DNA of 64,000 nucleotides from an uncultured Aquimarina sp. (GTDB lineage Bacteria > Bacteroidota > Bacteroidia > Flavobacteriales > Flavobacteriaceae). Location: positions 62,001-126,000 of the forward strand of contig CANLRN010000001.1 in NCBI GenBank assembly GCA_947493495.1, written 5' to 3'. Made by a program: the position numbers and the translations under genes. The notes beneath the pieces were generated by a model, which saw only the letters and a list, made by a program, of their open reading frames with translations, searched no databases and was not told the origin of the DNA. Shown piece by piece: positions 27,156 to 30,706 of this stretch (position 1 is its first letter; each line of letters begins with the position of its first letter).

Positions 27156-28242
27156 TAGTTCGTATAAATCTTTCAGGCAGCGTATCTGGCGTGCTTGTGG
27201 TTGAAATATTTTTTTATCTGAGGTTTATCAGCTTTTCTTTTATTCATAAAATCGTTGATGTTATTTTTGAGTTGTTCTTTGTTTATGGCTCTTTTCTTTC
27301 TAATGATGTTTGTTTTCAAATCTTGATTTACATATTCTTGAGGATTGAGTTCTGGAGAATAAGGGGGAATGAAGAATACTTCTATTTTACTCTTATTTTC
27401 ATCTAGCCATTGGTTTAGTTTTTTGGTTTTGTGAGCGGGATGATTATCAGTAATAAAGAATATTTTTTTCTTACTATACTTTATCATTTGTTGTAAAAAT
27501 GTTTTAAAAACCTCACTATTAAAACCCGCTTCCATCAACATGAACTGTAAATGTCCTTTATTACTTATAGCAGAAATCATATTGACAGTGAAACGTTTGC
27601 CAGTTGCCTTAATGATAGGTGTCTTCCCTTTGGGGGCGTAACTCCTTCCTGCTTGGTGATTACTTCTACAACCTGTTTCATCACCAAAATATATAGTTGC
27701 TTTTTCTTTACTAGCTCTTTGCTTTATAGTAGGATATTCTTCTTCTAACCATTGTTGAACTTGTGCTGGTTTTTGTTCGAAAGCTTTTTTAATAGGCTTC
27801 TGTGGAGTAAAACCCCAGTCCTTTAGATAGCGACCTACTTGCCATCGGGAAAGTTCTACACCATACCTTCTAGAAATCAATTGCTGGACTGCCTCTCGTG
27901 TCCATAAACCAAAAGGAAGCTTGAGTTGATCAGGCATTTTTTCCTTTATCAATTCTCGAATTGCATAAGCCTGATCTTTCTTAAGTTTCTTGCCTTGTTT
28001 TACACCTCGCTTTTTATTCCTCAATGATTGTTTTCCTCCTACTTTATAACTAGCCCAAATCTTATTGACAGCTCGTTCCGTGATATCAAATACAACACTA
28101 GCTTGCTTCTGAGTACCTCGCTTATTTCGTAAATAATCTGCTACCCTAAACCGTATCTCTTCTTGAGCCTGTTGATTCTTCCTCTTTTTTACCTTGATTT
28201 TCATAGCATAAAGATAAAAAACATAAATCAAAATAAGAACTA
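27156..28242 (-). mobile_element. IS630-type insertion sequence
   Basis: About 1,087 bases bounded by short imperfect inverted repeats, TAGTTCGTAT on the left and the complement of ATAAGAACTA on the right (nine of ten matching). It contains one complete transposase gene on the minus strand. TA at both outermost ends fits the TA target preference of IS630/Tc1 elements. AAT also flanks both sides, so the exact boundary is uncertain by a few bases. It is inserted in a T9SS-protein gene. Confidence 0.85.
27173..28204 (-). CDS. IS630-family transposase
   Basis: About 343 residues from the ATG at 28204 (MKIKVKKRKNQQAQEEIR); an upstream in-frame ATG at 28231 is less likely. The N-terminus holds two helix-turn-helix segments (QKQASVVFDITERAVNKIW and a winged SRWQVGRYLKDWGFTPQ). 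The DDE catalytic core shows IYFGDETGC, FFITDNHPAHKTKK and PPYSPELNPQEYVNQDLK. All three acidic residues are present and the frame is intact, so the element may still be active. Confidence 0.92.
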   Translation of the reverse strand: MKIKVKKRKNQQAQEEIRFRVADYLRNKRGTQKQASVVFDITERAVNKIWASYKVGGKQSLRNKKRGVKQGKKLKKDQAYAIRELIKEKMPDQLKLPFGLWTREAVQQLISRRYGVELSRWQVGRYLKDWGFTPQKPIKKAFEQKPAQVQQWLEEEYPTIKQRASKEKATIYFGDETGCRSNHQAGRSYAPKGKTPIIKATGKRFTVNMISAISNKGHLQFMLMEAGFNSEVFKTFLQQMIKYSKKKIFFITDNHPAHKTKKLNQWLDENKSKIEVFFIPPYSPELNPQEYVNQDLKTNIIRKKRAINKEQLKNNINDFMNKRKADKPQIKKYFNHKHARYAA

Positions 28243-28786: not shown

Positions 28787-29410
28787 ATGAAAAATAGTAT
28801 AAGTAAAGTGTTGTTAATAGTATTGTTATGCCCTATCATAAGTTGTCAAAAGGAAGATGATTCTTTTATAGAAGAGCAGACACTTATAGAAAATGAAATT
28901 AATAGTAAAAGTAATCCAGAATATCTTTTTGTATGTTCTGTAGACGGTATTCCAAATGGATACTTTGTCGAGGAATATATACACAATAATGACTGTCCAT
29001 TTACTAATTTATTTCAAGGAGGTTATAATGCTGCTATTGTAAAACGAAACGGTACTCCAAGAATAATCAGTGCAGGAGCTGGTTGTGATGACAACTACTG
29101 TATTTGGATTAGGGGTTCTAATTTTGATAACAATTCGTATGTAGATATCCGAACCACTACTGGTCCCAGTATCATAGGAACTTATCGAGATGCTAATAGA
29201 ACCTTAACCACAAATGCTCAAGGGCAACAAGTCATTACATTACGATTAGCATCTGCTTATGAACGTAATAAATTTGCCAGTCGCGGATTACGCATATGGG
29301 TGGTAAATCCAGATCCTAGAAAATGAGCTGATGGAAGAACAGTAAGAAGGCCAGGTAGTGGAAATGGGAATCCTATTGATCCCCCTTGCGATCCACCAAC
29401 ATGTCCATAA
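28787..29410 (+). pseudogene. Small Cys-containing lipoprotein with an in-frame stop
   Basis: The first frame encodes 179 residues ending at TGA 29324-29326. A lipoprotein signal (LLIVLLCPIISCQKEDD) is followed by an acidic linker, a Cys-bearing segment (YLFVCSVDGIPNG) and a beta-rich tail ending RIWVVNPDPRK. Directly after the TGA the same frame continues ADGRTVRRPGSGNGNPIDPP and ends CDPPTCP at 29410. The TGA therefore looks like a mutated Trp codon, cutting off a 27-residue Cys/Pro tail. The 179-residue product may still be made. The N-terminus resembles the lipoprotein at 30419 (C.KE.DS..E pattern). Function unknown; probably outer-membrane anchored. Confidence 0.7.
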
Positions 29411-29450: not shown

Positions 29451-29509
29451 GATCAATTTGAGAAACAACAAATTTGATCTGTACTTTATAAAGACTATTT
29501 TTATAAAGT
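29451..29509 (+). promoter_or_regulatory. Two adjacent inverted repeats upstream of the GG-leader peptide
   Basis: GATCAATTTG at 29451 pairs with CAAATTTGATC ending at 29480, with one bulge. ACTTTATAAA at 29483-29492 pairs perfectly with TTTATAAAGT at 29500-29509. They lie 49 bases before the peptide's start codon and 40 bases after the lipoprotein frame. They may be the lipoprotein's 3' end or a leader structure for the peptide. Confidence 0.4.
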
Positions 29510-29557
29510 AAAACATAATTCATTTAAAATTAATGGTATCATTAAAACCGTATCGAT

Positions 29558-29755
29558 ATGTTAAAAAAAATTCTAAAATTAAACGGAGTTACCCAATTAG
29601 ACAGTACTAAGCAAAAAAATATAAAAGGAGGAGGCTTTCCTTTTGTAGATTATTGTTACTGTATTTATAGAGATCATAGTGGTTTTTTAGTCATTTCAGA
29701 AGACTTGCCTTGCAATAGTACCTGTCCAGACGGATCTGATCCTATTGGATTTTAA
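29558..29755 (+). CDS. Double-glycine-leader peptide, putative ribosomal natural-product or bacteriocin-like precursor
   Basis: 65 residues. The first 25 (MLKKILKLNGVTQLD...KNIKGG) form a typical Bacteroidota GG leader: amphipathic helix with L..LNGV.QL, then K..QKNI-KGG ending at Gly24-Gly25. Such leaders are cut by C39 peptidase-containing ABC transporters. The 40-residue core begins GFPFVDYCYCIY and has four cysteines (33, 35, 52, 56), Ser/Thr near them, and ends GSDPIGF. Disulfide or thioether crosslinks are possible. No modification enzyme, transporter or immunity gene is next to it in this window. It is flanked by two small lipoproteins and followed by a strong terminator. The leader call is firm; activity is unknown. 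Confidence 0.78.
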   Translation: MLKKILKLNGVTQLDSTKQKNIKGGGFPFVDYCYCIYRDHSGFLVISEDLPCNSTCPDGSDPIGF

Positions 29756-29811
29756 ATCATAACTGGTATAAACCGTTATTCTTTATTACATAAATGTAAT
29801 GAGAGAGTACC

Positions 29812-29862
29812 AAACCATTTTTTATATGTTTATATATATTATCATATAAAAAATGGTTTTTA
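29812..29862 (+). terminator. Strong terminator after the GG-leader peptide
   Basis: AAACCATTTTTTATATG and CATATAAAAAATGGTTT form a perfect 17-base stem, closed by an A+T loop and followed by T residues. It lies 57 bases beyond the peptide stop codon. The A-rich left flank is weak, so it should act mainly rightward. Confidence 0.85.
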
Positions 29863-30241
29863 TTACCTCTTTAAATTTGATAACAGCATACTCTATTACG
29901 TTTTCGTAAACTGAATAAATTCCCCCTTTTTTTCAAGACGCTTATCCATACAGATTGCACATAAATCCCTAAAAATAAGGCATTCATCACTTTTTCAGTA
30001 AATAATCCTTGGGACAAGCCCACGAGGCATTCAACTGAAAATAATTTTTATAATTCCGAAGCAAGTCTACATGGTATCAGTCAGACAGGCTTCGAGGTAT
30101 TAGACCTGAAATCCCGGCGAAAAAGCGGGATTAGTTCAACTATCTGATTTGAAGGCATTGCTGTGCAACTTTTCAAATCAGAGTTTCATTAATAATACCT
30201 TAGGTGTGATAAATTAATTTGATTAGTAGTATTAACCATTA
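29863..30241. other. Hairpin-rich non-coding stretch of relatively high G+C
   Basis: No convincing gene. From about 30008 the composition changes: GGGACAAGCCCACGAGGC, CAGACAGGCTTCGAGGTATT and two hairpins stand out. ATCCCG...CGGGAT is at 30111-30131, and CTGATTTGA...TCAAATCAG at 30144-30181 has a loop holding GCATTGCTGTGCAACT. Copy 2 of repeat A begins at 30242. The stretch may be a decayed mobile element or a structured RNA; neither is shown. Confidence 0.5.
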
Positions 30242-30418: not shown

Positions 30419-30706
30419 ATGAAAAAACAACTCTTAAGCATTATATCAATTTTTGTTCTAGTGATTACACTAATCGCTTGCGAAAAAGAAGAAGACTCAC
30501 TGAATGAAGAATTACAAAATCTAGAAAACACTGATGAAAAGGTAGCTGAAGAAATTAATGCAAAAGCTCAAACTTTTGTCGTATGTTTTAATGAATACGA
30601 TTTTTGTTGGCATCAAATCATTAGACCAGTATGGGAGAGTAGATGTCCCTTTCAGGCACCTGGTGCTCCTTATAATTCTTTTTTAGTTACGCCTAAACAA
30701 AAATAA
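30419..30706 (+). CDS. Small Cys-containing lipoprotein
   Basis: 95 residues. Lipoprotein signal MKKQLLSIISIFVLVITLIAC, then an acidic linker (EKEEDSLNEELQNLENTDEK) and a short Cys-bearing end (FVVCFNEYDFCWHQ, ESRCPFQAPGAP). The start and the FVVCFNEYD/LFVCSVDG region resemble the lipoprotein at 28787, suggesting paralogues. No known domain. A MITE copy ends just before the start codon and a long terminator hairpin follows the stop. Confidence 0.75.
   Translation: MKKQLLSIISIFVLVITLIACEKEEDSLNEELQNLENTDEKVAEEINAKAQTFVVCFNEYDFCWHQIIRPVWESRCPFQAPGAPYNSFLVTPKQK

Follow-up and report, generated by a model that had tools for sequence, protein, structure and literature searches.

Which enzymes could cut, modify, and export the product of a peptide gene that has no such enzymes beside it? 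The gene in question encodes a double-glycine (GG) leader peptide and lies in a 64,000-nucleotide stretch (the window, G000:C1:62001-126000) of the 5.0 Mb, 333-contig genome of an uncultured Aquimarina. A sequence-only reading of the window had described a solitary 65-residue open reading frame (ORF) with a GG leader and a Cys-bearing core, and had predicted that the product would be processed by machinery encoded elsewhere. The ORF is found at the position and on the strand claimed, and neither a list of neighboring ORFs nor domain scans reveal an adjacent transporter or modifying enzyme. The features of the locus are as follows.

27173 to 28231, minus strand: IS630 transposase gene, from ORF and domain match, 1.3 kb upstream of the peptide gene
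28787 to 29326, plus strand: small lipoprotein-like gene, upstream, with four of five full-C-terminal relatives near GG-leader ORFs
29451 to 29510: pair of hairpins upstream of the gene, from folding, that may be leader or terminator elements
29558 to 29755, plus strand: GG-leader peptide gene, 65 codons plus stop, from the ORF, its homologs, and apparent purifying selection on the core
29558 to 29632, plus strand: leader of 25 residues ending in Gly24-Gly25, from sequence and conservation in 34 chosen homologs
29633 to 29752, plus strand: core of 40 residues with four Cys (CxC...CxxxCPDG), from conservation in the same 34 homologs
29812 to 29859: perfect 17-pair inverted repeat, terminator-like, from pairing and folding energy
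30419 to 30706, plus strand: small lipoprotein-like gene, downstream, 38% identical to a copy on contig C85 (E 1e-16)

The peptide gene, its relatives, and its flanks

The plus strand translation of 29558-29755 reads MLKKILKLNGVTQLDSTKQKNIKGG, then the core GFPFVDYCYCIYRDHSGFLVISEDLPCNSTCPDGSDPIGF; in this 65-residue product the GG occupies positions 24-25, and the four Cys are residues 33, 35, 52, and 56. A full-length paralog lies on contig C85 of the same genome (71% identity, E 5e-27), and peptide matches at E<=0.01 occur in 41 of 188 genomes (its own included), all of one genus; the best match extends past residue 52 in 35 of the 41, and covers the leader or little more in the other six (G016, G027, G054, G060, G061, and G063). 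Named genomes with relatives include Aquimarina megaterium (strain XH134) and an uncultured Aquimarina. The paralog and the matches in 41 genomes make the ORF more than a chance reading frame, and we conclude that it is a real gene. Against the C85 paralog, a simple Nei-Gojobori count gives dN 0.13 and dS 2.16 for the core (a synonymous distance near saturation) and dN 0.36 and dS 0.70 for the leader, so the core is the better-kept part; in more distant homologs leader and core have changed to a similar degree. Judged by these counts, purifying selection acts on the peptide core. The 200 bases 5′ of the gene give no meaningful alignment with those 5′ of the C85 paralog.

The leader and the Cys-bearing core both hold up in an alignment of 34 homologs, a set chosen as carrying the core motif (CxC...CxxxC[P/E]DG for the family) and including one Kordia sequence with PCNSTCPDG and two Flavobacterium sequences: G24, G25, C35, C52, C56, and G59 are invariant, M1, I5, L6, L14, and Q19 are nearly so, and C33 and D58 are kept at 90% or more. 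The Ser and Asp emphasized beforehand are indeed common in the family, Ser at CxSxC and Asp before Gly, but without clear meaning. In a published complex the C39 domain grips the leader via residues -4, -7, and -12, and hydrophobic residues at these positions characterize GG leaders (PMC6363468, whose numbering we follow). The window leader has conserved GG, Ile at -4, and Leu at -12, as in C39 substrates; the hydrophobic -7 position is occupied by Gln and, since this Gln is nearly invariant in the family, the leader recognition code may differ in detail. A predicted structure of the peptide (pLDDT 80.7, pTM 0.42) retrieved nothing usable from the PDB (best E 1.3), and the best candidate in a profile search of PDB sequences (E 0.22) was rejected.

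The hairpins upstream and the perfect 17-base stem downstream are both present. Bases 29812-29828 pair perfectly with 29843-29859 (17 pairs), and 29800-29875 folds at -22.9 kcal/mol (z -7.9, 0 of 200 shuffles as good); the upstream hairpins, at about 29451-29479 and 29482-29510, have a z of -2.85 (3 of 200 shuffles as good). The downstream stem itself thus stands, but the terminator role assigned to it is better regarded as putative because the stem is A+T-rich and absent from a consensus terminator scan. The Bacteroidota-type promoter TTTG-N17-21-TANNTTTG occurs twice in the window (3.4 expected by chance), in neither case at the peptide gene, and sigma-70 matches in the window are no more numerous than chance.

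The further claim that no immunity gene is adjacent has become less sure, since two mutually related small lipoproteins (whole-family profile, E 9e-10) flank the peptide gene; all Pfam and NCBIfam matches to them are below cut-off. The upstream protein (28787-29326) stops some 30 residues short of its closest relatives, and longer copies exist in other genomes. Of five relatives seen outside the genome with the full C-terminal part, four (L209, L212, L214, and L216) lie no more than 1.5 kb from a same-strand GG-leader ORF; no such ORF is that close to the fifth (L210) or at the remaining loci that this search gave (L211, L213, L215, and L217). A homolog of the 95-residue downstream protein (30419-30706) lies directly beside the C85 paralog, between two GG-peptide genes, and is its only near relative; weaker matches to longer proteins occur in 13 other genomes of 61. 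Linkage to GG-leader ORFs favors a partner role, but with its near relative limited to the C85 locus, the 95-residue protein is only a candidate immunity protein; both flanking lipoproteins are candidates for a partner, a receptor, or an immunity protein.

Exporters and a C39-like/VKOR/thioredoxin fusion

The genome is not without a C39-type exporter. A C39 ABC exporter on contig C28 (L070) is over cut-off for PF03412, keeps DCGPTC, and has an HlyD-type partner gene beside it; another on contig C108 (L071:5528-7711) is also over the PF03412 cut-off and followed by an HlyD-type gene, and has DNELIC in place of DCGPTC, a replacement that probably leaves it unable to cut leaders. Because the DCG motif is kept there, the C28 protein looks, from its motif, like the sole exporter in the genome able to cut. 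A nearly identical copy of the window IS630 lies at L071:3036-4094, beside the degenerate C108 exporter, placing the same element near two parts of the peptide system.

The only machinery-like neighbor to recur in 22 family loci (other recurrent genes being judged housekeeping by eye) is a fusion protein of about 530 amino acids, encoded upstream and on the same strand in 11 of the 22 at 1.6-3.0 kb start to start. The window genome has one such fusion, on contig C13 (L072:8531-10126), so candidates for both an exporter and a modifying enzyme are encoded on other contigs, much as predicted. Specifically, i) the C13 protein is over cut-off for VKOR (E 3e-12, the sole VKOR match of the genome) and Thioredoxin_4 (3e-5), and unites what defines a VKOR-thioredoxin fusion, namely the two domains and the six redox Cys; ii) these Cys (193, 201, 268, 271, 381, and 384) are kept in 116 of 116 fusion ORFs, its own copy counted; iii) in the predicted structure (pLDDT 86.9, pTM 0.66), residues 1-126 match PCAT1 (Z 15.3) and the complex of the LahT protease with its leader (Z 14.6), residues from about 155 to 292 match VKOR (Z 13.9), and those from about 349 to 516 match ScsC/DsbA (Z 17.6); and iv) profile comparison aligns the N-domain with the C39 domain of the exporters (probability 93%), the match to PF03412 itself being below cut-off (19.1 of 22 bits) and beginning at profile position 24. 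The alignment of fusion and exporter profiles starts past the DCG Cys of the exporter, and the fusion has Asn and His at the exporter His and Asp columns, which we take to be the catalytic ones; the N-domain lacks the catalytic Cys, His, and Asp of an active C39 peptidase.

Bacterial VKOR fusions are reportedly mentioned in early surveys of VKOR homologs. The Synechococcus VKOR (4nv5) is a VKOR-thioredoxin fusion with the same relay of CxxC, loop Cys pair, and thioredoxin CxxC, but the fusion described here adds an N-terminal C39-like domain and linked GG-peptide genes, and has a larger, DsbA/ScsC-like thioredoxin domain. Its N-domain shares its fold with the C39-like domain (CLD) found in type I exporters and with the protease domains of LahT and PCAT1. 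Degenerate C39-like domains have been proposed to recruit substrates, and a single LahT serves nine precursors with diverse cores; the CLD, however, is joined to an ABC transporter, whereas the degenerate domain here is joined to a putative disulfide-forming membrane enzyme (PMC6363468). No description of a C39-like/VKOR/thioredoxin fusion, or of its link to GG peptides, was recognized in the open-licence literature, which is weak evidence of absence. The peptide belongs to a kind known in outline (GG-leader, Cys-rich); neither its family nor the fusion enzyme was recognized among the open-licence papers searched.

Linkage in relatives and the diversity of cores

With a leader profile built from 68 non-Aquimarina leaders only, a GG-leader ORF is found within 1.5 kb in 49 of 90 fusion loci (29 of the 48 close fusions and 20 of the 42 distant ones) and not in the remaining 41, the 90 being the best-scoring of 108 places. 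GG-leader ORFs near fusions lie on the same strand in 124 cases and on the opposite strand in none, and 60 long loci contain 52 such ORFs within 1.3 kb of the fusion versus 4 at 2.6-3.9 kb. Among 22 named loci from the peptide search, 14 have the fusion, and 11 have the fusion, GG-leader ORFs, and a C39 exporter; the linked exporters are 67-68% identical to C28 in ten unbroken loci, and that of L059 is in two pieces. For 81 fusion places and 80 exporter places in G000-G060, an exporter lies no more than 62 bp from the fusion in nine cases in the genus, and within 754 bp in a tenth, always on the strand of the fusion. In the window genome, the neighbor of the fusion is not the window peptide but another one, whose Cys count of 5 is odd.

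Of 54 genomes of the genus that bear the fusion, 41 have a peptide match, versus 0 of 12 that lack it (p 1e-6); at 90% completeness or more the counts are 40 of 51 and 0 of 7 (p 1e-4). This test is confounded by small genomes and by relatedness, which may inflate it. Of 61 genus genomes, 51 have a C28-type exporter, as do 36 of the 37 sampled genomes that match the peptide, the exception (G046) being 55% complete; some genomes (G005, G007, and G036) have the exporter without the fusion.

Among 6076 distinct small ORFs of the fetched loci, 244 are picked up by a whole-peptide profile seeded with the window peptide, a proportion that is not a genome rate since these loci were chosen for holding GG peptides or the fusion. 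Going by these profile matches, one leader type precedes very different cores across the wider repertoire, at least among the matches listed. The variable core expected of the window family thus has a mixed outcome: within the family the core is conserved, and changes less than the leader against the C85 paralog, whereas cores across the wider repertoire are diverse. Of the sequence-only reading, the GG leader, the Cys core, the lone gene, and the machinery elsewhere survive.

A leader-only search yields 165 non-redundant cores, of which 150 have an even number of Cys, 8 an odd number, and 7 none: 4 Cys in 82 cores, 6 in 59, 2 in 7, 8 in 2, and 0 in 7, with odd counts of 3 in one core, 5 in six, and 7 in one. 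(Non-redundant sets drop cores more than 70% alike by difflib ratio and cores shorter than 15 residues, the 165-core set also drops cores longer than 90 residues, and its leader profile was built from peptides first found by the whole-peptide profile.) Among cores with 4 or more Cys, the GG set has 143 even and 7 odd versus 125 and 35 for control small ORFs (p 9e-6); the even lean of the controls perhaps reflects unrecognized peptides among them. Leaders are almost free of Cys (1 in 3537 leader residues), and the window core, with four, has the even number expected of a disulfide-bonded peptide.

At least 12 GG-leader ORFs occur in the fetched loci of the window genome, and single loci have up to 21 (L058, Flavobacterium sp. 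KMS; 17 in L053, F. hydatis). In the L058 and L053 arrays the Cys-rich GG ORFs share one orientation, and the fusion and a C39 exporter adjoin them. Cys-free products are also seen: L205:399-1220 (minus strand) holds tandem short GG-ending ORFs with Gly/Asn-rich tails beside a fusion, similar ORFs lie near other fusions, and in L084-L087 the fusion is separated from the family peptide by runs of two to four GG ORFs of 51-54 residues whose tails lack Cys (cluster 14).

Proposed maturation and its alternatives

From the observed conservation of leader and core, the Cys parity, the domains and intact redox Cys of the fusion, and the linkage in relatives, we infer that the window peptide is probably (at roughly 0.7) secreted, disulfide-bonded, and bacteriocin-like, and matured in trans by C28 export and trimming and by oxidation through the C13 fusion. 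In such a pathway, i) C39-type domains would recognize the 25-residue leader in the cytoplasm; ii) the C28 exporter and its HlyD-type partner would cut after Gly24-Gly25 and export the 40-residue core; iii) the C13 fusion would oxidize the core, electrons passing to quinone at the VKOR CxxC and the loop Cys pair acting as relay; iv) the thioredoxin CGYC of the fusion would form both disulfides on arrival of the core in the periplasm; and v) the protease-dead C39-like domain of the fusion may hold the leader on the cytoplasmic side while the thioredoxin domain acts across the membrane, coupling oxidation to export. We wish to stress that use of the C28 and C13 proteins by the window peptide, the order and topology of these steps, the disulfides themselves, and a final role in killing, signaling, or anything bacteriocin-like are all proposed here rather than observed. 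Disulfide formation by the fusion is nonetheless the best-supported modification, ahead of LanB or radical SAM chemistry.

Bacteroidetocins offer a precedent for the disulfide step in their thiol-redox genes (PMC6671954, Coyne et al. 2019). Like the window peptide they come from Bacteroidota, have a GG leader, and measure about 40 residues, with four Cys in A and B; the bacteroidetocin locus encodes a multi-TM protein, a thiol oxidoreductase, and a C39-type exporter, with no obvious immunity gene; the multi-TM protein and the oxidoreductase are required for full activity, and the peptides migrate differently on reduction (PMC6671954). A bacteroidetocin target has been identified, and the title of PMC8546649 names BamA. 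Comparing locus descriptions rather than mature sequences, three differences from the bacteroidetocins of PMC6671954 stand out: their leaders have 15-16 residues rather than 25; their machinery is adjacent, whereas no exporter, TM protein, or thiol oxidoreductase is found in the neighborhood of the window gene, and its counterparts would act in trans; and their TM and oxidoreductase genes are separate, whereas here there is one C39-like/VKOR/thioredoxin protein, which by analogy could be a merged form of the two.

The same maturation could instead deliver a signal, a protease inhibitor, or a surface factor, an outcome that we consider rather unlikely but the strongest of the alternatives. A conserved core under apparent purifying selection would suit a fixed partner, and the linked lipoproteins could be receptors; arrays of up to 21 ORFs with one leader type and diverse cores look more like weapons, however, and bacteroidetocins, with a comparable locus make-up, kill (PMC6671954). 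It is improbable that the window gene is an orphan copy, whether stray, decaying, or silent, that ended up next to an IS630 element. The transposase gene 1.3 kb upstream, the early end of the upstream lipoprotein, and the lack of synteny with the closest relatives would all fit, but the frame is intact, every conserved position is kept, the gene has its own hairpin-bounded unit, and the core dN/dS against the C85 paralog is low; it is this core conservation that tells against decay.

A genome search for LanB/LanC-like and radical SAM enzymes found LanB and LanC at C14 (L154 4096-10793) and one SPASM-type protein at C46; a second LanC-like gene lies at C76 (L155:7884-9113), and the LanB match at C14 is the only one in the genome. 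A class I lanthipeptide, modified in trans by the C14 LanB/LanC or the lone C76 LanC and exported via C28, would accommodate these genes and the Ser/Thr near Cys in the core (CNSTC), and we give it slightly less credence than the decaying orphan. Several observations disfavor it: both LanB/LanC (C14) and LanC (C76) are unlinked to the precursor, and the C14 locus has small GG-type ORFs of its own with a different leader; the window peptide matched none of the lanthipeptide leader models, and one other peptide of its genome had a match far below cut-off; the VKOR fusion recurs in family loci, and no LanB was recognized among the recurring neighbors scanned; the Ser of CxSxC is not invariant; and thioether rings would not predict Cys parity. 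A RiPP modified by a radical SAM enzyme, of either the TIGR04149 or the grasp-with-spasm type, is very improbable, because, despite the C46 SPASM protein and a GG leader of the Bacteroidota type that the TIGR04149 leaders share, the window leader reaches 18.9 bits (E 0.001) against a curated cut-off of 25, TIGR04149 is over cut-off nowhere in the genome, and no SPASM gene was recognized near the family.

Returning to disulfide formation by the fusion, we also put forward, tentatively and at somewhat less than even odds, a broader scheme in which a leader guides oxidation: a protease-dead C39 domain built into a quinone-driven VKOR/DsbA enzyme would pick out GG precursors and tie their oxidation to export, one enzyme and one pump would serve a dispersed and expanding library of Cys-rich peptides whose cores differ widely, and the window gene would be an orphan member acting with its flanking lipoproteins. 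In a phylum-wide sample of 395 genomes from 171 genera, the fusion occurs in 41 genomes and 13 genera, so such a system would be widespread but patchy. If correct, this would explain how disulfide-rich secreted peptides can arise from scattered orphan genes in Bacteroidota; the C39-like/VKOR/thioredoxin fusion would be a simple genomic marker for such peptides, and might serve as an enzyme for folding Cys-rich peptides under the control of their leader.
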